Source: a virus
Virus record (IMG/VR): IMGVR_UViG_3300031963_010483
Coordinates: 1-32,499 of that record
DNA length: 32,499 bases
Direction: 5' to 3' (one strand)
The translations under genes and the position numbers were made by a program. Below, one piece after another: positions 876 to 27,368 of the stretch (within the stretch, counting starts at the first letter, position 1; each line of letters starts with the position of its first letter). The notes under the pieces are model-generated. The model was not told the DNA's origin. It did no database searches and was given only the letters and a program-made list of their open reading frames with translations.

Positions 876-1163
876 CTACTTTCTAATAACTTGTGTTTTA
901 CACTTATCTCCGCTACATGTGCTTGGTGGATTTTGTTTATCTGGTTCACAATAGCCACAATCCACCCTTTTAATACCATCGCCACTCATATACCACCCCT
1001 TACCTTTACACACTGGACAGTCTTTACGCTTATATTTTTGTACAACTACTACTGATGAACCCTTAATAATACCACCAACCACAGTCACAACTGCTGTTGA
1101 AGATCCACTATAAGATTGTGATAATATCAATCCACAAAATAAGACTGCTAAAAATTGTTTCAT
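876..1163 (-). CDS. Small exported protein with DnaJ-type Cys pairs
   Basis: The ATG at 1161-1163 is preferred because GGAAGG sits 7 nt upstream and the ATG overlaps the previous stop as ATGA; a GTG at 1176-1178 would lie within that ribosome site. The 95-residue product starts MKQFLAVLFCGLILSQ, a good signal peptide or membrane anchor. It continues with a Val/Gly-rich segment (23-41) and a Cys-rich part: C49xxC52 followed by GKG, then C69xxC72, which resembles the CxxCxGxG zinc repeats of DnaJ, plus C83 and C88. Zinc binding outside the cytoplasm is inferred. No J domain is present, so it is not a DnaJ chaperone. Function is unknown. Confidence 0.6.
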   Translation of the reverse strand: MKQFLAVLFCGLILSQSYSGSSTAVVTVVGGIIKGSSVVVVQKYKRKDCPVCKGKGWYMSGDGIKRVDCGYCEPDKQNPPSTCSGDKCKTQVIRK

Positions 1164-1357
1164 TTTTTTACCTTCCACGGAATTATTCTGTCTATAATAT
1201 TTTTTATAGGTTTAGGATGATTAGGAACTGGAGCTGGTTGTGGCTTTGGTGGAATTATAGTATTCTCTGTCTTATCAAATAGTTCAATAAGTTTACGAAT
1301 AATATTTATCAACTGTGTTAATAGTTTGCTTAATCTTATCTTATCCAAGAGGTTCAT
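1160..1357 (-). CDS. Small Pro-rich hypothetical protein
   Basis: The 65-residue product has an amphipathic, Leu/Ile-rich N-terminal helix (about 1-28), a proline-rich linker (36-50, PPKPQPAPVPNHPKP) and a short basic tail. It overlaps the upstream peptidase gene and the downstream Zn-ribbon gene by 4 bases each (ATGA), a clear sign of translational coupling. No family is recognised. The Pro/Lys-rich linker is of the kind that can cross a periplasmic space, but there is no clear signal peptide, so a spanin-type role is only a guess. Confidence 0.5.
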   Translation of the reverse strand: MNLLDKIRLSKLLTQLINIIRKLIELFDKTENTIIPPKPQPAPVPNHPKPIKNIIDRIIPWKVKK

Positions 1358-2280
1358 AGATATCCTCCAAAACCATAATCTGGTAATTTTTGTAGTGGAA
1401 AACCATCAAAATTACTAAAAGCATAACTGCCGTTTTGGCTTAACATACCAGCAGCAGTATCAGCATGAATTAAAAATGATCCATCTGGAATTGGACCCCA
1501 TTCTGGATGACCTCCATCATTCCATTTTCCCCAACTATTTTGCACTAAGAATAGAGGCTCGCTGCCAGTATCATCACACGCTATCCAAGCCATACAATGA
1601 GCCCAGCTACCACTAACGTTTGCTATACCCCTTTTATCTCTTTTGTTTGAGAATCCATAATTAGAGCATACGGATAAACCATAACCATTAGCAAGAGCAT
1701 CTCGCGCTTCTTCAACTGTGCGTACTAATGATGTGGTCTTGATTTGATGATCATTAGCTAGGTCTAAAACTTTATCTGGTAATCCTCGACCACCCCAGCC
1801 AGCACCAACATTACCATTATATTTAGATAAGTCAATAACACCTTTATAATCTTTACGAACTAATATACCACCAATTCTACTAACAAACTCTGCTGCTCTG
1901 CTGCAACTCATACCCTGGCCAGAAAAACCTCTGGCCCCATAAATAGCCTCAGTGGCGCCTCGTGCTATCCAAGACTCCTTCTCTCCATCCACATCAATTT
2001 CTACTGCTCGACTAACATCACAGGCATTTCGTGTTCCGTGGGAAACACAATCTCCAGTGGTTTGTCTTTCATTATAAGGATTTTTATCAAACTTTAACAC
2101 ACTCTTATATGGTGTTGATAATTTGCCTTTACCACTATTTTTAATTTTTTTGCTAGCATCTCCAAATAGTGGATATTTAAGAGTTTCCATCAAGTATTCA
2201 AAATGGTGCTCTTCCCAAACGCATCCGCTAAATCCTTTACGATAATTATCATAAAGTTCTTTTGGACTAAAACGTGGCAT
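1354..2280 (-). CDS. Papain-like (C1-type) cysteine peptidase
   Basis: The product has 308 residues. The papain-fold catalytic set is visible in order: Q73 as oxyanion residue, C78 in TTGDCVSHG, H228 in SWAHCMAW and N248 in VQNSWGKWNDGG. The last motif is typical of the C1 family. No signal peptide or propeptide is evident; residues 1-70 form a polar lead. It sits between small membrane protein genes and a Pro-rich protein gene to which it is coupled by ATGA. Known C1 enzymes cleave proteins, whereas most phage cell-wall peptidases with this fold are CHAP or NlpC/P60. It could therefore be a virion or lysis-associated protease rather than a classical endolysin. The catalytic residues make an active enzyme likely. 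Confidence 0.8.
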   Translation of the reverse strand: MPRFSPKELYDNYRKGFSGCVWEEHHFEYLMETLKYPLFGDASKKIKNSGKGKLSTPYKSVLKFDKNPYNERQTTGDCVSHGTRNACDVSRAVEIDVDGEKESWIARGATEAIYGARGFSGQGMSCSRAAEFVSRIGGILVRKDYKGVIDLSKYNGNVGAGWGGRGLPDKVLDLANDHQIKTTSLVRTVEEARDALANGYGLSVCSNYGFSNKRDKRGIANVSGSWAHCMAWIACDDTGSEPLFLVQNSWGKWNDGGHPEWGPIPDGSFLIHADTAAGMLSQNGSYAFSNFDGFPLQKLPDYGFGGYL

Positions 2281-3839: not shown

Positions 3840-4718
3840 TCAAATGGTGCCGTTATCAACACCATCAATAAAAATACCATTATAAAATCTATAACCATAT
3901 TTATCATCAATTTCAGCAATAGTTGGGTATTCTTTAACATAGCGATTATAAGTTATGCCATAACTAAGCGGATTTGTACATGGTGTGAGTGATGCGTCCA
4001 ATATTAAATCAAGAAATGAAAGCCATCCGCCATCTTCTTCTCCATTTGGGGCAGCATCGTACCAATCCCATCCTATTACATATATTTTACCACTTCCATA
4101 TGGTATCATAGTAACTACCGATTCATTCTCTCCGTCTCCCTCATAAATAGTAACTGAATCTGGTGGTAAAGTTGATGTGTCCAATGAGTCTGTGGCACTC
4201 AAGTCTGGAACTGTTGATGGTGCGGTTGGGAATAGAGACAATCCGCTTGATGTTAAATTTATTGGTTCGGTAAGTCCGTTATCACTTATAGTGAAACCAA
4301 AAACATTATTCAATAAATTAAATATTTCATCTGGTGCAAACGTGATTAGTGTTCCTCCATTACTAACAAAACTCTCTATAGCGCTCCTTGCTCCAGCAGT
4401 TAAATCAGGATCTAAATCATTCTCTTCTAATTCTGGTATTACTAATATGCCTCCATTAAAACTCGCAAAAGTCTCTTGACTAATACCTGTGAAAGTATCA
4501 TAAGAATAACCAAGACTATTAATAGAAGCGGTCACAGTTAGTCCTTCAGCACCATCAGGGTTGCCTGGATTAATATCTACATAGTTACCATTCATAAAAA
4601 CATTAATAGTGTCACTAGCATAGCAACCTCTAGAGCGACCATTAACAACCATTGTGCCGTTTTTAACTGGGTTGGCTACGATAACTGCTGCTATATCTGT
4701 GAATGGTCTGGTTGGCAT
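3840..4718 (-). CDS. GATase-like (ThuA/DUF4350-type) domain protein, probably virion-associated
   Basis: The product has 292 residues. Residues 30-62 look beta-rich. The core resembles class I glutamine-amidotransferase-like folds used for binding rather than catalysis: GGILVIPELEEND (89-101), a helix then VSNGGTLITFAPDE (118-131), and YGSGKIYVIGWDWYDAAP (207-224). I see no Cys-His-Glu triad. A 50-residue C-terminal tail is rich in Tyr, Asp and Gly. It follows two fibre or adhesin genes and has its own promoter-like motif upstream, so a tail-tip or surface protein is likely. Confidence in the fold is moderate; exact function is unknown. Confidence 0.55.
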   Translation of the reverse strand: MPTRPFTDIAAVIVANPVKNGTMVVNGRSRGCYASDTINVFMNGNYVDINPGNPDGAEGLTVTASINSLGYSYDTFTGISQETFASFNGGILVIPELEENDLDPDLTAGARSAIESFVSNGGTLITFAPDEIFNLLNNVFGFTISDNGLTEPINLTSSGLSLFPTAPSTVPDLSATDSLDTSTLPPDSVTIYEGDGENESVVTMIPYGSGKIYVIGWDWYDAAPNGEEDGGWLSFLDLILDASLTPCTNPLSYGITYNRYVKEYPTIAEIDDKYGYRFYNGIFIDGVDNGTI

Positions 4719-4747
4719 AATTTACTCCATAAAAAAGGTTATACTAA

Positions 4748-4757
4748 ATATTACACC
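4748..4757 (-). promoter_or_regulatory. Candidate phage promoter motif (GGTGTAATAT)
   Basis: The minus strand reads GGTGTAATAT, 29 nt before the ATG of the gene ending at 4718. The wider block 4742-4768 is almost identical to 26493-26517, differing by one base and a 2-base gap. A -10-like TAATAT directly follows GGTG. No convincing -35 hexamer is seen. Confidence 0.5.
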
Positions 4758-4842: not shown

Positions 4843-6240
4843 CTATGCCCATGTTGGATAGTAACTAGCGTTATCAATACCGTTCTGTGTACTTGCACTA
4901 TAGTAGTAAGCGTTCCCATTAACCTCTCCACCACTTTCATTGATTGAGAAGTCATTAAATACAGCATCAGCACTAGAAGCTCCAATAGTTCCATAATTTT
5001 TACTAAAATCATTAAATACAGCATTACCATTAACAGTACAAGAAGCACGATTTTCTGAATAATCATTAAAAATAGCTTTTCCACCAATAGTTGCATCATT
5101 ATAACTACTATCATTAAATTCTACCAAACTGTAACTATCTCCAGCGGTTCCATCATTATAAGATTCATTATTAAATACTATTTTTACCGGGGCCACTCCC
5201 GCACTCAAAGCCCCGCCGCTATTCCAATATGAATTGTTATTAAAAATCATCTTTGCTACACCGGTCAAAGCATTACTTCCATAATAAAAACTATCATTAT
5301 TGAATATTAGATCGCCACAAGTAATAGTATTACCACCACCACCAAATATCCATCCATAAGACGAATAGCTATTGCGGTTATTAATTATTTTAAGTTTATC
5401 ATTACCAGATATGGTGATGTTAGAAGCATAAGTAGAATTATATGTATCTATAATTAGTTCATTATTATCACTAAAAGTGATACTTATATTATTACTAAAA
5501 TAGCTATCATCTTTTAATACTAATCTACTATTATTATAAAAAGTTAAATAACCACCAATATATGAACTTTTATATAGTGTTAAAGTACCTCTATACATAT
5601 AGGTATTTGATGATCCTATACCAATACTTCTCGTAACATCCACATCACCATAATATGATGCTGGGCATGAATTACTACTATTTAAAATAATTTTAGGAGC
5701 ATAAACATTGCCGCCTGAATACGGGTAGGAACTGTCATTAAAAGTAACACTAATTCCAAAATATGCGTTAGTCACTGAACCAGTTATAGTGGAACTACCA
5801 TTAAATATAGCGTGACCGGTTATGACCGGAGTACTTTCACCATTACTACCATAACTTAAGAGAGAAGTATCATAAAAAATAGCATTTCCAGCTATTTGAC
5901 CAGCACCGATATATGTGCTATTAAAGAATTTCACATCACTCTTATAAACACCAGACCCAACATTAAGATAGCCTGAGTCTCTCACTATTATTTCTTTAGC
6001 AATTATTTCACCAGTACTAACACTAGTTAATCCATTTAAAATTATAGCTATATCTTCAACTGTTGGAATTCGTCCAGCAGCTATGGTGTGATCATAGTCT
6101 AGATACCAATTACCAGCTGTATACCAATCTCCATCAGTACTATAAAAATATAGAGTATTATAACCATCTGTAATATCAATAGCACCACTAGTTATTTTAT
6201 TGTCTGTGGTAATACTATGAGAACCATAATTAATAGCCAT
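4843..6240 (-). CDS. Repeat-rich adhesin-like / tail appendage protein
   Basis: The product has 465 residues, low in charge and very rich in Asn, Ser, Tyr and Gly. After a unique N-terminal part (1-85) it is built from short irregular repeats around the core phrase FN(N/D)xSY or IFND(Y/F)S, most regular at residues 333-430 (starts near 333, 355, 374, 391, 409 and 428). Repeats of about 18-22 residues with Gly turns and alternating hydrophobics fit a beta-solenoid fibre. It lies between the main fibre cluster and the GATase-like gene. A receptor-binding or structural appendage role is inferred. The ATG has GGGGAAA about 8 nt upstream. Confidence 0.65.
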   Translation of the reverse strand: MAINYGSHSITTDNKITSGAIDITDGYNTLYFYSTDGDWYTAGNWYLDYDHTIAAGRIPTVEDIAIILNGLTSVSTGEIIAKEIIVRDSGYLNVGSGVYKSDVKFFNSTYIGAGQIAGNAIFYDTSLLSYGSNGESTPVITGHAIFNGSSTITGSVTNAYFGISVTFNDSSYPYSGGNVYAPKIILNSSNSCPASYYGDVDVTRSIGIGSSNTYMYRGTLTLYKSSYIGGYLTFYNNSRLVLKDDSYFSNNISITFSDNNELIIDTYNSTYASNITISGNDKLKIINNRNSYSSYGWIFGGGGNTITCGDLIFNNDSFYYGSNALTGVAKMIFNNNSYWNSGGALSAGVAPVKIVFNNESYNDGTAGDSYSLVEFNDSSYNDATIGGKAIFNDYSENRASCTVNGNAVFNDFSKNYGTIGASSADAVFNDFSINESGGEVNGNAYYYSASTQNGIDNASYYPTWA

Positions 6241-6257
6241 AGCTGAATTTCCCCGTA

Positions 6258-6581
6258 TTAGTTAATTGTGACTGAGCCATCATCGTTCATTGTGAAATTA
6301 CCAACAACAGCAGAACCCTCGCTAATTGCTTCTGGTTTAACACTAGCTATTAGCGCGCCTAGTTTACCATGAAGCTCAAAAATCTCTTTAGCATCAGAAC
6401 CAAGGGCCGCAGCTATTTCTGCTGGGGTTGCTCTACTATTACTCCAAAATAATTTTGAACCTTTATTAAAAGCATCAGCCATACCCTTAAATGCTGATCT
6501 AGCTTCAGCTTTAATTTGTCTAGCAATTTTTTCTGGAACTGGAATGGTTACAGGAACTTCATTATTATCTAAAACACCCAT
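6258..6581 (-). CDS. Small tail-fibre-associated protein
   Basis: The frame is open to 6629, but the ATG at 6579-6581 has AAGGAG 6-7 nt upstream and avoids running into the fibre gene, so this start is preferred (107 residues). The phrase FWSNSRATPAEIAAALGSDA, followed by EIFELHGKLGALIASVKP, is a pattern I recognise from small phage proteins encoded beside tail fibres. The C-terminus has a short beta hairpin-like end (VGNFTMNDDGSVTIN). It could be a fibre assembly helper or a small structural protein. Family recognition is moderate and function is not established. Confidence 0.6.
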   Translation of the reverse strand: MGVLDNNEVPVTIPVPEKIARQIKAEARSAFKGMADAFNKGSKLFWSNSRATPAEIAAALGSDAKEIFELHGKLGALIASVKPEAISEGSAVVGNFTMNDDGSVTIN

Positions 6582-6594
6582 CGTATTCTCCTTA

Positions 6595-9500
6595 TTATAG
6601 TATTGATTGTGTGATGTTAACAGCGGCAACCCAGCGTATATTTGTACTACTAAGACCAGTAACTCTAAGTTCTAATGCTTCATTAGTATCATCAGCAACA
6701 ACACTAGCGATTGTTGAACTCATATCTCCCTCGCTCCAATTTTCTGAAATTACAGATTCTATTAATGATGTTGCATTGGAATTATTTCGTCTTAAACATC
6801 CTCTAAAAACCCACGATGCGGCAGTATGATCAGTATCATTATGAGCCACTAATTGAATAATAAAATTCCATGTTGTGCTAGCAGGAATAACTAATCTATT
6901 GCCACCACCAGCGGCACCACCGTTTGTTGTTAATACAACATTAGCAGTATTATCTGTGGTATTCTTTTTAAGAATTTTAGTAATAGTATTAGCATTGCTA
7001 GATCCAATATATAGTCCGTTTGTGGCAGTATGAATGGCATCAATTGTACGAGCATTGTCTATATGCACATATTGAGAATGATCATCATCACCAAGACCGA
7101 ATAACAATCCATGATCGTTCTGAGTTACTCCGTTAACTGTTGATAATATACTCCCTCTAAGATCTAATATACTTTGCAAACTACTTTTTGGAGTATTGGT
7201 AAAAGTATTATTAGTTACGAATATTAGTCTATATAATGGTTTAATTTCATTAGCTGGAATATTAGCTAAATTGAGATCAGTCCAGTTATTAAGATTCTCA
7301 GCAGATCCTAAACTACTGTCTTCTCTTTGTCCAACAATTGCTAGTATAGGATCAATCATATCATTGGTTGCTACAATCCACATAGCAAAATATCTATTGT
7401 TGGTAACATTTGGAGTTGTCCAAGTTGAGCCAGACAACAAATTGTATTGCGCTCTTGTGCCATTATATTTTAATGGATAAGCTGTCGCTATGTCTCTTAC
7501 CCATTGACCAGTACTTCCGCTATGATAGTATGTGGGAATATAAGCGATAGGATCTAATTGTTGAGTAAATTCAACTCCATTGTCTCCATCAGCAATACTA
7601 ATAACTATATCTTCTTGATAAAGAGTACCATTACTAATACTAATTTGAGCATGGCTATTTGAGGTACCATCTCCTGATAATACATAATTACCAATACTCA
7701 ACCCATCAATATATTGAATACCAAAAGTATCATGGATCCATTTATGAGTAACGCTATCCATTCGGATACCATGACGCTCTTCTCCAAAAAATGTGCTTTG
7801 GTTAATATCAGCATTCCAATGAATATACGCAATCGGAACATCAGTATCAAAATTAAATGGTGTTGTTTTATTCTCTAATAATCCAGTATCAGTATTAAAA
7901 TGTAAATAGTTGAGTGCTGTTCCACTACCAATAACAACTGTTTCTGTAGCTGTTTTAGTAACCTTAACGCCCTCTATATAAATATCGTAACTAGAACCAG
8001 CGGGAGCAATTGTAAAAGTTCTGTCAAGATCATTAAAACTAATAATACTATCAAGACGATTAACAAATCCTTGGGGTTCTTGACTTAGTACATTAATCTC
8101 TGTATGAAGATTGTTTATTGTGAGTGTGTTATCTCCAGAATCATAATCCAAAAACACCCCGGTACCAGCAATTAAATTAGTATTGAAAGCATCATAAATA
8201 AGATCGTTTATTACATCAGTATCAATACCACCACTCAAATCAATATTCAGATAATATGTTTCATTATCATTAAATCTGAAACCATCTGCCCTAGCTAAGA
8301 TTTGATCTATAGAAAAAATATAATTAAAGCTTATAATAGTATTAAATGATAAAACTTCTCCACCAGTATCCACACTAGTAATTTCCATATAAATATCTTC
8401 ATCTGGAGATCTACCATTTGGACTAGATAAATTATTTCCTCTTAAAACTATAATATCCCCACTTTGATAGTCTTCACCAGCATTACTAATAGATATATCA
8501 TATTCTCTGGTATCTTGATTAACTGTAACAGAAAATTGTAAATTAGAACCACTACCATCTTCAGCATTAATAAGATTAGGATCACCTTCGTTTGTGCCAG
8601 TAAAAAATTCAAAATTATCATACCAGAAAGATGAATCTACAGATGAATATACACTATCAATAGTACTATAAAAATTAGTCTCGATATTATTAATATTTGT
8701 TGCACCAGTTAACACATTATCAATAAAACTTTCGAATAGTAATTGTATATCAGATAAACTTGAGGGATTAGTCGTATCTGCTGCATAAAATACAACCATA
8801 GCAATAGTATCAGAATTTAATCCGCTAGCTACAAATAAATCATCATTAGTATCATTACTAGGATCAGTAGAATATGTTGGAACGGTACCAACTTTGCTAA
8901 TAATTAATTTTGTATATGTTGGGTCATCTCCCCATAATCTGCAATATCCTGCTTGATAGCCATTATAATTTGATAATGATCCAATATCCTTATCTCCATC
9001 ACCGTCTGCGCCAGCATTACCAGCATAGTATACAGTATTTGGCATAGTAGTAGCATTACCTTTAGCTACCATAGCAAATATATTCTTCTTATATAGAGTC
9101 ACATAATCATTACTATTCCAATATTGACTATTCAAAGAAACTCTGCCAGAATTATAAGGAATAGAGGTGCTTCTCAATACTGAGGAAGATGGTGATGAAG
9201 TTGGTATAGAAGATGTGGTTATATTATTATTGATAAAGTTTGCTGAATCATATTGATCGTCTCCACCATCAATAATCCATTGTATAGATGACGATGGCCA
9301 AAATGCGGCAATTGATCCTGTATTAAGCTGTTTTGTAGGCGCTCCACCGGCAGCAATGAAAAAATTATCAGAATTATTTTTGGATGTTAATTTTAAAGAT
9401 ACCGTATTATTATTATCTATAATATAATTATAAAAATTACTATAATCAATATAATTTGATCTACTATCAAAAGTTAGTAGTGATGGTGTGATATTATCAT

Positions 9501-10165: not shown

Positions 10166-10768
10166 TCAGCCAGTTTTTGCTTTATAAGAAGTTGTGTATG
10201 GATTTGGTAGAGCATACTTAAATGTTAAACCACCAGGAACACTTCTTGTTGGAACAGCAGCATTATCAGTATCAAATACATCAGCCGCAACTACTGGATA
10301 ACCAACGTCCCACTGACCAGTAAATCTGTTATAATGATTAGCTCTAATTGCACTTGTGAATCTGCGTGTTCTAACGCCGTGATCACAACCCATGCCACAC
10401 ACTTTCATATAGTGAATACTTTGTACTAAACTTGGTACATCAGCAGCACTTTGTAGAATAGTATTGGATACGCCAGAAATCTGAGTTGTATATCTTGGGG
10501 CGACTGGTTTCTGGTTGTTGTAACTAAAAGTACCAGCACTATATGGCTTACCAGCGTAATCCTTAACTGTTACTGTGTCTTGGATGACTGTTGAGCCAAA
10601 AACACCAGCATCATAACGATCAACACCAACGCCATCAAATTTATTTGTATCTTGAACTCGTGTAGCAGCGCCGCCATTGCCACCAGCACCACTACCAGTA
10701 ACATTTGGTGGAACTGTATTATAATCTAAGCCATTTACTTTGGCCGCATAAACTTGAGATAAAGGCAT
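10166..10768 (-). CDS. Probable structural protein, Gly/Asn/Thr-rich, unknown family
   Basis: The product has 200 residues, no membrane segment, and a Gly/Ala/Asn-rich N-terminal half (GSGAGGNGGAA near 25-36). The second half is more ordered and includes HYMKVCGMGCDHGVRTRRF, with two Cys and two His close together. The composition, the strong GGAG ribosome site, its own promoter-like motif upstream and a hairpin after it fit a highly expressed virion protein, for instance a decoration, neck or tail component. No family is recognised, so the structural call is inference from composition and context. Confidence 0.55.
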   Translation of the reverse strand: MPLSQVYAAKVNGLDYNTVPPNVTGSGAGGNGGAATRVQDTNKFDGVGVDRYDAGVFGSTVIQDTVTVKDYAGKPYSAGTFSYNNQKPVAPRYTTQISGVSNTILQSAADVPSLVQSIHYMKVCGMGCDHGVRTRRFTSAIRANHYNRFTGQWDVGYPVVAADVFDTDNAAVPTRSVPGGLTFKYALPNPYTTSYKAKTG

Positions 10769-10831: not shown

Positions 10832-11467
10832 TTATTTAAGCATACGAAAATTGGGAATACTATTCGAACTAAAACCATAAGGATCAAATTTGACCAAATT
10901 ATCTAATTGATCCTTATTCCAAGCATTACCATTCACAATAGTTTTGATACCAGTTTTTTCGTTCAGATAAGCACAGGCTATAAGGTTATCGTGCAGATTA
11001 TCAATAAAAAAACCTGTTGATGGATAAATTATCTCCACACCCTCTTTGATTAGAATATCACAAACTTTGCATAATAATGAGTGATCAAACTTTCTATATT
11101 CTAGCATATATCTTAATTCAATAGTAGCTTCTTGACATATTGCTAGATTTTTCTTAATATCATCTCTAAATTTATCGTATTTTCTATTGATAATAGTAAA
11201 GAATGGAATTGGTATATTTATAAAATCAATATGTGCTACTTTGATAGCGTCTAAAATTAGATCTTGTCTTCTATTGATATCACAATATGCTAATGGATAA
11301 TCAACAAAACAGCCACATTTTAATGTTTCAAAATTTTTTTTTATAAATCTAATTTGACCCAGTGGGGCGGAGACTGCTGATATATTATATGGAAGGATAG
11401 TATCAATATTATTTTTAATATCGATCTCTTTATCGTCAATATTATTTGTATAATATTCAATATACAT
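10832..11467 (-). CDS. DeoC-like TIM-barrel protein lacking the catalytic lysines
   Basis: The product has 211 residues, close to the roughly 220-260 of deoxyribose-phosphate aldolases. Strand phrases line up with DeoC: VDYPLAYCD (55-63) with vgFPlG, IDFINIPI (80-88) with the ADEVDVV strand, ELRYMLEY (117-124) with LKVILE, and IIYPSTGF (146-153) with FVKTSTGF. At the Schiff-base lysine position the phage has Y148, at the second lysine R119, and the catalytic Asp appears to be Asn or Ile. Classical aldolase chemistry is therefore unlikely. It starts within the stop of the ClpP-like gene and has no clear ribosome site, so it may be translated by coupling. Fold is an inference from motif order; function is unknown. 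Confidence 0.55.
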   Translation of the reverse strand: MYIEYYTNNIDDKEIDIKNNIDTILPYNISAVSAPLGQIRFIKKNFETLKCGCFVDYPLAYCDINRRQDLILDAIKVAHIDFINIPIPFFTIINRKYDKFRDDIKKNLAICQEATIELRYMLEYRKFDHSLLCKVCDILIKEGVEIIYPSTGFFIDNLHDNLIACAYLNEKTGIKTIVNGNAWNKDQLDNLVKFDPYGFSSNSIPNFRMLK

Positions 11468-12135
11468 TATTTTTTTAATCTTCGTTTTAGATGATCAATT
11501 GTTGCATATGGAGATACACCTAAAATGCCATCAGCGAACCCATAATAAACAGCCTCCTCTGCTGTTAAAATCCAGTCAGATTTACTCGATAATTGAGATG
11601 TTATATGTTTTTTAACGGCTGATTTTTTCCAATCTTTTTCTTTAGCCATTGGGGATTCGGTGGCCCTGTCAGTAAAAATATCAATCATTTTTTTAGCTTC
11701 TTTTTCATTCCATTGAATATTACTCATCGCTGCTTTATGTTCTCCGTCTAAACTTAATGAGCCATAATGAATTAACACATAAGCATTTGGCATTAGTATT
11801 CTCAAATCCGCCGCCTGAAAAACCACACCACTAGCAGACTCTGCTTTGGAATAAGCTAAAATACCAACAGGAGATTGAGAATGTAAAATAGCATCATAAA
11901 TTCCAAGACAATCAGACCAATCTCCACCGGGCATGTGCATATGAATAAAGATTGGATCATTTGACATTAGATTCAAATATCTTAAATTTTTCTCAAATGT
12001 TACAGCATTTCTGTAGTCAACACCACTCTCATCATCCCCCTCGTTGATATAAGAATGCAAATATAATTCTCTATTTTCAACATCAATACCATAATGATGG
12101 AGATTAGTTAATTTCTGCTCAAATGATAAGCTCAT
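11467..12135 (-). CDS. ClpP/crotonase-fold serine protease-like protein
   Basis: The product has 222 residues. It shows the ClpP-fold signature: IFIHMHMPGGDWSDCLGIYD (62-81) with the oxyanion Gly-Gly, a nucleophile elbow SASG (S100 and S102 are the candidates), and PNAYVLIHYG with H123. The spacing from Ser to His is shorter than in E. coli ClpP by about 2-4 residues, as in several phage ClpP-like proteins. The acidic third residue cannot be fixed by eye. No Clp ATPase is encoded nearby. It could be a head-maturation protease or a stand-alone peptidase; no scaffold gene is obvious next to it. It overlaps both neighbours by a few bases. Confidence 0.7.
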   Translation of the reverse strand: MSLSFEQKLTNLHHYGIDVENRELYLHSYINEGDDESGVDYRNAVTFEKNLRYLNLMSNDPIFIHMHMPGGDWSDCLGIYDAILHSQSPVGILAYSKAESASGVVFQAADLRILMPNAYVLIHYGSLSLDGEHKAAMSNIQWNEKEAKKMIDIFTDRATESPMAKEKDWKKSAVKKHITSQLSSKSDWILTAEEAVYYGFADGILGVSPYATIDHLKRRLKK

Positions 12136-24792: not shown

Positions 24793-25704
24793 TTACAACA
24801 CTGGGTAAAGTATACCGTATCCCTCATATGTTTTTTGATGTGCATATTTTTTATTGACTAAAGACTTAGCATTAGTTTTGAATATATTAATATAATCTTG
24901 TGCTGTTTTAGGAACAACTAAATTATTTTTTCTACGATAAGATAATAATAATGATGCACAACCTATAGCAAAAGGTGTGGACATACTAGTACCACTCATA
25001 CTAGCATAATTATTTTTAGGTACACAACTGACTATATCCTTACCAGGACATAGAAAATCTAATTGTTCACCAGTACATGTAAAATTTGTTCTATTAAGAT
25101 TTCTATCTATTGCACCAATACTTATTGTGTTTTCATTTCCAGCAGGAAATAATAGACTATGTTTTTCTCCACTATTACCGGCAGCACAAAATATTACTAC
25201 GCTTTTTTGAGTGGCATATTCGATAGCTTTTTTAATATCTGGTGGTTCATTTTCACATCCAAGTGACATTCCAATGAAATCACACCCATAATCTACAGCC
25301 CAAACTATACCTTTTGCTATATCATAATTATTTCCACTACCATCATCATGCAGAGCTTTTATTGGTATAATTTTTGTTTTTGGTGCAACACCAACCATAC
25401 CTTTTGAATTATTTTCAGCAGCAATTGTTCCGCTAACATGGGTGCCATGACCATTACCATCTATTGGGTCTTTTTTATTATTTACTAAGTTAATTCCTTG
25501 TAATAAATTATTTTTTAAATCATCATGATTAATATCACATCCAGTATCTATTATTGCTACTCTAACACCATCTCCTGTAGAAGATTTCCATAATTGTTGT
25601 ATATTGAATTTACTAATTTCCCATCCATAAAATTGTTCTGTATTTTTATTTAAACCATATAAATCTTCTCTAATGAATGGTAATAATGCACAATCATTTT
25701 TCAT
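24793..25704 (-). CDS. Subtilisin-like serine protease of the intracellular type
   Basis: The product has 303 residues. The triad is complete: D53 in AIIDTGCD, H86 in GNGHGTHVSG, S240 in SGTSMSTP, with oxyanion N177 in AAGNSG. There is no signal peptide or long propeptide. The N-terminal ALLPFIRED (6-14) resembles the LIPY extension that keeps Bacillus intracellular subtilisins inactive until cleaved, and total length fits that family (about 320). GGAGGA gives a strong ribosome site, and the gene overlaps the trypsin-like protease gene by 11 bases. The paired genes suggest a proteolytic cascade or two-compartment protease system; substrates are unknown. Confidence 0.85.
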   Translation of the reverse strand: MKNDCALLPFIREDLYGLNKNTEQFYGWEISKFNIQQLWKSSTGDGVRVAIIDTGCDINHDDLKNNLLQGINLVNNKKDPIDGNGHGTHVSGTIAAENNSKGMVGVAPKTKIIPIKALHDDGSGNNYDIAKGIVWAVDYGCDFIGMSLGCENEPPDIKKAIEYATQKSVVIFCAAGNSGEKHSLLFPAGNENTISIGAIDRNLNRTNFTCTGEQLDFLCPGKDIVSCVPKNNYASMSGTSMSTPFAIGCASLLLSYRRKNNLVVPKTAQDYINIFKTNAKSLVNKKYAHQKTYEGYGILYPVL

Positions 25705-26455
25705 TTAATTCCTCCTTAACTGTTTTATTAATCCAATCTATAAATTGGCTAACTCTTGTGTGTCCACTCTCTGTTTGATAAGTTGATTTCAAAGTGATTG
25801 CTTTACCCTCAGAAATCACGCAGGAGTTGATACCAGCGAGTTTACCGTCAATAAATAAACCGCCGCCACTGTCACCACTAGCAATTAAAAACTCAAGACT
25901 GGTGCGGCCAGAACCTTTGGTAGCAGAACACATTAATAAATGTCGATCAATATAATCTATTTTATTAGATCCGGCCCTTTGTTTACCATCACCAATTTCA
26001 GCACCAGTAATAAAATTACCACTGATACCGAATCCAGAGATACAACAAATTTTACCCTTCTCATCAGAGTCTGTATATAAATCAGGATAAAAATCTAGAT
26101 CAATATCCTTTTCTGTAAAACCTATTGCGATATCATTGTATCCAAATTTATTATCATCAAATCCAGTATGATAAACTACTTTATAGATACAGATTTCTTT
26201 TTTATTAATTTGAATTTGACAAGATAGTGTGTCTTTAACAACATGTGCTGCTGTTAAGATAACTCTTGGTCTAATGGCAACACCAGATCCACAATAATTT
26301 AGATCATTTTTGGTTTTACCACAGACTTTACCAACATAAGTAAATTTGGTAGCATATTCGAGATATTTAGAGTCTGGTGTATTTGGATCAATTGTACCAG
26401 ATAATGCTATCGTAGATATGGTAGCAAATAAAATAGATAGTAATATTTTAAGCAA
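25694..26455 (-). CDS. Exported trypsin-like (S1) serine protease
   Basis: The start is a TTG at 26453-26455 with AGAGGTG 4 nt upstream; no better start exists. The 253-residue product begins with a signal peptide (LKILLSILFATISTIALSG, 2-20). The catalytic residues are visible: H71 in ILTAAHVV, D108 in GYNDIAIG, S196 in ASGDSGGGLF. Cys pairs (C45/C55, C79/C89, C137/C138, C176, C212) are consistent with disulfides outside the cytoplasm. The protein would be secreted to the periplasm or medium. A hairpin overlaps the ribosome site, and a GGTGTAATTT motif lies upstream. Confidence 0.85.
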   Translation of the reverse strand: MLKILLSILFATISTIALSGTIDPNTPDSKYLEYATKFTYVGKVCGKTKNDLNYCGSGVAIRPRVILTAAHVVKDTLSCQIQINKKEICIYKVVYHTGFDDNKFGYNDIAIGFTEKDIDLDFYPDLYTDSDEKGKICCISGFGISGNFITGAEIGDGKQRAGSNKIDYIDRHLLMCSATKGSGRTSLEFLIASGDSGGGLFIDGKLAGINSCVISEGKAITLKSTYQTESGHTRVSQFIDWINKTVKEELNEK

Positions 26456-26461
26456 GGTTCA

Positions 26462-26491
26462 CCTCTTTTCTTTAGAGGGTTATTTTTAACC
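26462..26491 (-). promoter_or_regulatory. Leader hairpins over the ribosome site of the exported protease
   Basis: On the minus strand a 5-bp stem GGTTA/TAACC (26478-26482 with 26487-26491) is followed by a stem CCTCT/AGAGG (26462-26466 with 26474-26478). The two stems share base 26478, so they are mutually exclusive. The second pairs the AGAGG of the Shine-Dalgarno site, which could limit translation of the TTG start. Confidence 0.3.
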
Positions 26492-26496
26492 TTACT

Positions 26497-26506
26497 AAAT
26501 TACACC
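26497..26506 (-). promoter_or_regulatory. Candidate phage promoter motif (GGTGTAATTT), exported protease
   Basis: The minus strand reads AATT-GGTGTAATTT right after the AlkB-like stop (26512-26514) and 41 nt before the TTG start. The block 26493-26517 is near-identical to 4742-4768, linking the protease gene to the same control as a virion-type gene. Confidence 0.5.
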
Positions 26507-26511
26507 AATTA

Positions 26512-27018
26512 TTAGCCCAATCTAAATACTATAGAGTATCTAGTATCCTTAACTGGTGGAACAGAATGTTTCCAGTCGTACCTAATCTCCCCCCTCATTT
26601 GTACCAGACTACGGATAGGTAATTTGATTGAAAATGTTTCGTTCTCTTTAGTAAAAACCATTGTGGCATCAGATAATAAACTTAAAATACTAATTACTTC
26701 TCCACTAGTTTTAGTATCAATATGGGGCGCTATAGAATTGCCTTTTAAGTATTCATTGATAGAAACAGAGTTTGGTTTTATTTCTAAATAACCACATTCT
26801 ACTATTTTTTGAGAAATTTTATCTAAGTAGTTTGGTATAATATCAGATACCATATTGGTTTCATATGGTAATGAGGATCCGTATCTCTTAATACTATTTC
26901 TTAGTAAGTTACTTTTTGTGGTTTTTCTAGGTGGTGCTAGATTTGATAATATTACTTTCTCTTCCTCTTCTGATATAAAATCAGTAATTAATTTTAATCC
27001 TAGGGCTTCGATATCCAT
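26512..27018 (-). CDS. AlkB-like 2-oxoglutarate/Fe(II) dioxygenase
   Basis: The product has 168 residues. The iron ligands are H99 and D101 (APHID) and H151 (DWKHSVPP), and the 2-oxoglutarate-binding arginines fit R160 and R166 (DTRYSIVFR). The phrases ISILSLLSDATMVF and LVQMRGEIRYDWKH are typical of AlkB homologues. It is shorter than E. coli AlkB (216), mostly at the N-terminus. It probably removes alkyl groups from DNA or RNA bases. GGAAT before the ATG is a moderate ribosome site. It overlaps the thioredoxin-like gene by 19 bases and follows RuvB, giving a repair-type neighbourhood. Confidence 0.85.
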   Translation of the reverse strand: MDIEALGLKLITDFISEEEEKVILSNLAPPRKTTKSNLLRNSIKRYGSSLPYETNMVSDIIPNYLDKISQKIVECGYLEIKPNSVSINEYLKGNSIAPHIDTKTSGEVISILSLLSDATMVFTKENETFSIKLPIRSLVQMRGEIRYDWKHSVPPVKDTRYSIVFRLG

Positions 27019-27368
27019 TTGATAAATTCCTTACTATTATTATAGCCAACTTTACGTTTAATCTCCACTCGATTATGGAGAACAATAAAATCTGGTATAG
27101 TAGATACTCTATACTCCTTAATAATATCTTTATTCGTATCAAAGTCTATATAACATACAATTTTATCTTTTAAAATATCATCTCCTGTCATTTCACTCTT
27201 AAATTTATTGCAATACTTGCACCAGTCTGCCGTAAATACTATTAGAATATCTTTTTTTGATGATTCTGACAGGGCCACAGCATCAACCAGACTATCTAAA
27301 TATATGGTATCATCGCACAGAGCGTTTAATGGAAATAAGAACACTAGTATTAGATATAAAATTTTCAT
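27000..27368 (-). CDS. Exported thioredoxin-like protein
   Basis: The product has 122 residues. Residues 1-18 (MKILYLILVFLFPLNALC) form a signal peptide or lipoprotein-type signal (Cys at 18). The thioredoxin fold follows with VFTADWCKYCNKF: the active-site pair is C50xxC53, with cis-proline P92 in STIPDFIV. Such exported proteins reduce or form disulfides in the periplasm. Phage relevance could be folding or activation of the Cys-rich exported protease encoded two genes downstream; that is inference. Its ATG overlaps the RuvB stop as ATGA. Confidence 0.8.
   Translation of the reverse strand: MKILYLILVFLFPLNALCDDTIYLDSLVDAVALSESSKKDILIVFTADWCKYCNKFKSEMTGDDILKDKIVCYIDFDTNKDIIKEYRVSTIPDFIVLHNRVEIKRKVGYNNSKEFIKWISKP

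Follow-up and report, generated by a model that had tools for sequence, protein, structure and literature searches.

The window analyzed here, a 32,499-base IMG/VR virus record, encodes homologues of rIIA and rIIB, a ClpP-type head protease, a sigma factor, and a tail fibre, and we therefore regard it as a fragment of a T4-like phage. On its minus strand, two protease genes lie back to back. The upstream gene (positions 25694 to 26455), which opens with TTG, encodes an exported S1 (chymotrypsin-fold) serine protease of 253 amino acids with the triad H71, D108, and S196, a signal peptide at residues 1 to 19, and a predicted mature N terminus G20-T21-I22-D23-P24. The downstream gene (24793 to 25704) encodes a subtilisin (S8) of 303 amino acids without a signal peptide, with the triad D53, H86, and S240, the oxyanion residue N177, and an inhibitory-type N-terminal motif, L7-L8-P9-F10. 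The reading frames overlap by 11 bases (25694 to 25704), and in most relatives by 4 to 17 bases, an arrangement that suggests translational coupling. A strong Shine-Dalgarno sequence, AGAGGTG (26460 to 26466, minus strand), lies ahead of the TTG start and is predicted to pair in a hairpin with positions 26474 to 26479; that of the subtilisin, AAGGAGGA (25710 to 25717, minus strand), contains GGAGG and falls within the coding end of the S1 gene. Finally, a promoter-like motif, GGTGTAATTTAG, is found at positions 26495 to 26506 of the same strand, at a distance of 51 nt from the TTG that opens the S1 gene.

A first-pass annotation of the sequence had described this locus as two overlapping genes for proteases of unrelated clans, one exported and one intracellular. 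An open reading frame check confirmed the coordinates, the strand, and the 11-base overlap, and Pfam placed the two proteins in different families, both above the cutoff: PF00089 (Trypsin) with 49.5 bits for the S1 protease (cutoff, 20.6) and PF00082 (Peptidase_S8) with 177 bits for the subtilisin (cutoff, 21.8). Both triads can be read directly from the window translations and are invariant in the relatives, so that, judging by these residues, both enzymes are almost surely catalytically active, as had been proposed. Around the S1 TTG start (window positions 26440 to 26511, minus strand), the RNA is predicted to form a fold that pairs both the Shine-Dalgarno sequence and the start codon (z, -3.3), and a fold of the same kind was seen at the S1 start of a second lineage (L031, positions 4660 to 4731; z, -2.7). 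Translational control of the S1 mRNA by such folding is possible.

Separate searches seeded with each of the two proteases yielded 26 nonredundant viral groups and three phage-like contigs from genome collections. Conserved pairing, which the first-pass annotation had suggested looking for, was found: the S1 protease was present in the same record in 24 of the 25 subtilisin-bearing groups. In 18 of these 24 groups, the genes were adjacent in the window order, mostly overlapping by 4 to 17 bases; two groups (L017 and L038) had an adjacent pair in reverse order, three (L012, L025, and L048) had the genes separated by 1.0 to 1.6 kb, and one (L022/L023) had them about 30 kb apart. Neighboring S1 and subtilisin genes that both keep a complete triad thus recur in 20 nonredundant phage groups, far more than expected by chance. 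Identity to the window proteins was 43 to 65% across relatives (49 to 65% for the subtilisins), and the triads were invariant in 24 S1 and 21 to 23 S8 relatives, the S8 gaps being contigs that end early.

Solitary genes were also found. Two lineages (the L031-L035 group and L054) have the S1 protease but no subtilisin at the syntenic site, so the two proteases need not act together, and L040/L041 carry the S1 gene alone at another place. The sole subtilisin group without this S1 protease, L002, keeps the LLPF motif and encodes a different, diverged exported Trypsin_2 protease (positions 1028 to 1813, minus strand) 6 kb from the subtilisin. The linkage is strong but not obligatory. Hence, relatives carrying either gene alone, which had been named as evidence against the pair, do exist, whereas the lack of any link that was to accompany them is contradicted by the 24 of 25 groups that carry both. 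Nor is the pairing an oddity of this one phage: it is conserved as a shared character of a lineage of large, uncultivated aquatic phages that carry rIIAB.

Part of this linkage is explained by descent, since the pair sits in a conserved gene block whose order is rIIA, rIIB, small genes, clamp loader, small membrane protein, volactin-like actin, HNH gene, S1 protease, subtilisin, small genes, and macro-domain protein. The evolutionary distances of the two proteases were correlated (r, 0.42), and the partial correlation given the clamp loader was 0.19. Coevolution of the two enzymes beyond the genomic backbone was thus unsupported.

Several neighbors of the pair deserve mention in their own right. 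The actin homologue is of the volactin type (PF25216, 215 bits; L001, positions 5897 to 6895), with similar genes in 22 to 23 relatives, and is nearly always preceded by the small membrane-protein gene (L001, 5550 to 5894); the actin gene adjoins the pair in most relatives and is absent from the window. An HNH gene stands ahead of the pair in about 20 relatives. The window has none, although its intergenic sequence at 26456 to 26506 (minus strand) resembles the 3'-terminal part of the L031 HNH gene, as if the gene had been replaced by the 2OG-Fe(II) oxygenase encoded at 26512 to 27018. Two genes upstream of the S1 gene (27000 to 27368, minus strand), there is a thioredoxin-fold protein with a signal peptide and a CxxC motif, which has relatives in six loci.

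All 24 aligned S1 proteins start with a hydrophobic signal peptide and satisfy the -3/-1 rule for signal-peptidase cleavage, while the subtilisins have none, in agreement with the proposed split between an exported and a cytoplasmic enzyme. A conserved GT[IVR].P segment (GTIDP in the window) directly follows the predicted cleavage site, T21 being invariant and G20 nearly so. The AlphaFold2 model of the S1 protease (mean pLDDT, 87.8; pTM, 0.85) matched S1A (chymotrypsin-type) structures with Z scores of about 25 over 198 to 202 aligned residues (for 7h6g_A, Z of 25.8 and root mean square deviation [rmsd] of 2.0 over 200 residues). This fold, together with a His-Asp-Ser triad in 24 of 24 proteins, is that of Peptidase S1A. 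In the chymotrypsin family, residue 16 is the N terminus that activates the enzyme, inserting next to Asp194. In the model alignment, residue 20 of the phage protein coincides with residue 16 of chymotrypsin-type enzymes, the residue being Gly and not Ile or Val. Since GTIDP both follows the signal-peptidase site and sits at the position of the activating N terminus, removal of the signal peptide may itself switch the enzyme on.

The label "trypsin-like" of the first-pass annotation holds for the fold but not for the specificity. Residue 190, which an ungapped count back from S196 aligns with Asp189 of trypsin, is Leu, Ile, Met, or Ser in the 24 relatives, and trypsin specificity is for this reason not expected. 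The window S1 protein had no match among 50,697 phage records. Bacterial exported S1A proteases (from Phycisphaerae, other Planctomycetota, Verrucomicrobia, and Gammaproteobacteria), which carry G[TV]IRHD after the signal peptide, share with it the fold, the triad, a C-terminal helix, and the GT right after the signal peptide. However, they are at most 36% identical, have GTIRHD instead of GTIDP, and have frames of 324 to 397 amino acids in most cases, while the phage protein has about 250 and no C-terminal extension.

When a profile of 23 phage subtilisins was compared with PDB, the best solved relatives were intracellular subtilisins (ISPs) (7y6m, E value of 2e-76; 7xr8). The model of the window subtilisin (pLDDT, 93.6) matched the Bacillus clausii precursor 2x8j_D with a Z score of 41.0 and an rmsd of 2.0 over 287 residues, its residues 2 to 303 aligning with residues 1 to 307 of 2x8j_D; 2wwt was aligned from model residue 4. 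The LIPY segment of ISPs blocks the active site, and mutating it relieves inhibition (PMC6220982). The phage LLPY is in register with LIPY in the profile alignment, as it is in the structural one, so the likening of LLPF to this self-inhibiting extension was well founded. Within the phage motif, L7 and P9 never vary, and L or F occupies position 8 and Y, H, or F position 10, with [LF]P[YFH] in 23 of 23 proteins and LLPF in the window. No signal peptide was found in the subtilisins of the window or its relatives.

In the B. clausii ISP, a regulatory Ca2+ loop near S1 comprises D186, R188, T191, and E193 (PMC6220982). This loop is four residues shorter in all phage relatives covering the region. 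Therefore, the phage subtilisin looks locked in the manner of ISPs and, with the loop of ISP activation shortened, would have to be unlocked differently. Like the ISPs compared (7y6m, 7xr8, 2x8j, 2wwt, and 6f9m), it has no signal peptide, a LIPY/F-type extension, and the S8 triad; in contrast, its Ca2+ loop is shortened, it ends soon after the S8 core, and it is paired with an exported S1 protease. Given the loop, the sequence is best classed as ISP-like and not as an ISP. The subtilisins of isolated phages (PHROG 3677; Bacillus phages Goe3 and FADO and Moorella phage MTATph1) are also S8 enzymes without a signal peptide from large tailed phages, but they are at most 44% identical to that of the window. 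The Goe3 enzyme has VIPH at the LIPY position and keeps the ISP Ca2+ loop (GDGDPNTEE), and in the three isolate records inspected, no S1 protease was annotated within 2.5 kb of the subtilisin.

The motif in front of the pair provides a clue to the timing of its expression. In five phage records, with the pair genes excluded, GGTGTA[AT] was seen 36 times at 22 to 58 nt before same-strand gene starts, against 4.4 expected. The genes behind it include the tail-fibre gene of the window and neighbors of it in the structural part (10169 to 10768 and 3843 to 4718), as well as genes for one tail protein, for one virion protein, and for small membrane proteins that bear a TSEFW motif. The last are only weakly holin-like, since one of their genes (L111, 307 to 783) matches helix-hairpin-helix domains instead. 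Further copies at window positions 4757, 9765, 10812, and 15838 (minus strand) lie 29 to 48 nt before virion or late-type genes. In these phages, GGTGTA[AT] probably serves as the late promoter. The T4-type late promoter TATAAATA was also tried and showed no enrichment before genes (5 occurrences versus 4 on the reverse strand).

Clean intergenic copies of the motif precede the S1 gene in the window, L012, L048, L053, and L054, and in L038, where the order is reversed, a clean copy precedes the subtilisin, which is the first gene there. The copies in many other relatives overlap the last codons of the HNH gene and may be coding, so they are not confidently promoters, and several relatives lack the motif. 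Late transcription of the pair is suggested, with moderate confidence, by the promoter-like motif that it shares with virion genes. In T4, rIIAB and the clamp loader are usually early or middle genes, and such neighbors count against a late operon.

We also looked for the genes that would normally serve lysis and head maturation. Capsid maturation is otherwise provided for in the window, which has its own ClpP-type head protease (11467 to 12135); the pair matches no known prohead protease family and lies outside the structural module. Only S1 and S8 domains were found in the two proteins, with no peptidoglycan-hydrolase domain, and no recognized holin or endolysin is adjacent to them. Seven endolysin Pfam families gave no match above the cutoff in ten large relatives. 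For PF00959, PF01510, PF13539, PF01464, PF08291, and PF01551, there was no match in the ten records while control genomes matched; PF05838 gave one subthreshold match with internal stops, and PF00182 gave none, no control genome matching either family. The L001 record also contains a putative lysis cluster (L084, 13906 to 17682), which matched no known lysis family. Since the records may be incomplete and the search covered several common families, the lack of matches fits, but does not prove, a role of the proteases in lysis.

As for the host, no close cultured relative was found among isolates. The L022 record (L105, 11665 to 15952; G002) encodes a PSCyt1-PSCyt2-PSD1 protein (790 amino acids) and a DUF1501 protein (431 amino acids) with a sulfotransferase between them. 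PSCyt1/PSCyt2/PSD1 and DUF1501 are "Planctomycete-specific" genes also carried by Verrucomicrobia (PMC5615132). In L055, a contig that could be chimeric, phage genes lie directly next to a fragment of a DUF1501 gene, and the nearest cellular relatives of the S1 protease are mostly from Planctomycetota. These sequences hint at a host among the Planctomycetota or Verrucomicrobiota (PVC superphylum). Three S1-bearing contigs (L054, L055, and L056) had been binned into genomes of Chitinophagia, Alphaproteobacteria, and Flavobacteriales; because the labels disagree and all three have the gene block of these phages, we treated them as misbinned phage DNA and rejected the host labels. L054 also looks chimeric in its clamp-loader gene.

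Together, these data lead us to a tentative interpretation, plausible if short of probable, in which a lineage of large T4-like phages with rIIAB expresses the pair late, as a protease operon that acts on host proteins in two compartments and helps to dismantle the host for lysis and release. The S1 enzyme would be exported, signal-peptidase cleavage leaving GTIDP where active chymotrypsin-type enzymes have their N terminus, and so would be active only outside the cytoplasm. The subtilisin would remain a cytoplasmic zymogen, its active site blocked by its own LLP[YFH] segment; this block would last until the segment was removed, either late or when the membrane breaks down. Both enzymes together would help to break down the envelope and proteins of the cell. 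What carries this reading is the presence of both genes with their intact triads, the signal peptide, the LLPY motif, and their conservation and linkage, in particular the S1 protease in 24 of 25 subtilisin groups, found from either seed. The attack in two compartments envisaged in the first-pass annotation is thus borne out by sequence as regards the predicted location of the enzymes, while their targets we infer, as we do export-coupled activation, the zymogen state, late timing, and any role in lysis.

Other explanations have to be weighed against the late two-compartment operon. General turnover of host proteins, with the subtilisin degrading cytoplasmic proteins for recycling or host shutoff and the S1 enzyme acting separately in the periplasm, appears unlikely, although it finds parallels in the ISPs that recycle protein in stationary phase (PMC6220982) and in the isolated Bacillus phages whose intracellular-type subtilisins have no adjoining S1 partner. 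The rIIAB and clamp-loader neighbors would also suit it, but it leaves the near-constant retention of the exported enzyme unexplained, and the late-type promoter-like motif speaks against it. Quite unlikely is a processing cascade, also raised in the first-pass annotation, in which the exported S1 enzyme cuts the LLPF segment off the subtilisin zymogen at membrane breach to give a burst of activity. The genes are adjacent and coupled in most relatives, the N terminus of the subtilisin is zymogen-like, loss of the Bacillus ISP Ca2+ switch loop leaves room for another trigger, and the one group outside the 24 of 25 has another exported S1-type protease 6 kb away. Yet the distances of the two proteases correlate no more than with backbone genes (partial r, 0.19), L002 keeps LLPF although it lacks this S1 enzyme, the two compartments do not mix before lysis, and a putative cleavage site was not identified. 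A more specific scenario joins the cascade to the hinted host: where hosts of the PVC superphylum have protein-rich envelopes, the S1 protease of their phages, exported late, would take on tasks that normally fall to murein endolysins or spanins and, at membrane breach, would meet and activate a cytoplasmic subtilisin zymogen devoid of the Ca2+ switch. We regard such protease-based lysis as distinctly unlikely.

Lower in probability, we place a role at the cell surface or in defense, with the S1 enzyme shaving receptors or envelope defense proteins (superinfection exclusion or antidefense) and the subtilisin countering intracellular defense proteins. The pair does lie in a zone of accessory genes with glycosyltransferases, a macro-domain protein, a thioredoxin, and a 2OG oxygenase, but we found no specific link to any defense system, and the late-type motif is again at odds with it. 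The least probable explanation is that one or both proteases process virion precursors or are packaged. The motif before the pair is common to virion genes; nevertheless, a ClpP-type head maturation protease is already present, the pair is outside the structural module, and an exported enzyme cannot meet cytoplasmic procapsids, which makes a role in capsid maturation unlikely.

Phage subtilisins were already known from isolates. In the phage records and literature searched, we found no conserved operon that joins a subtilisin to an exported S1 protease, and a search of publications for subtilisin/trypsin pairs in phages, or for phages that infect Planctomycetes, yielded nothing on this pair. 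If the late two-compartment reading holds, the pair would be a clean test case of protease activity gated by compartment and would offer a handle on how hosts like Planctomycetota or Verrucomicrobiota, for which few phages have been cultured, are broken open by their phages.
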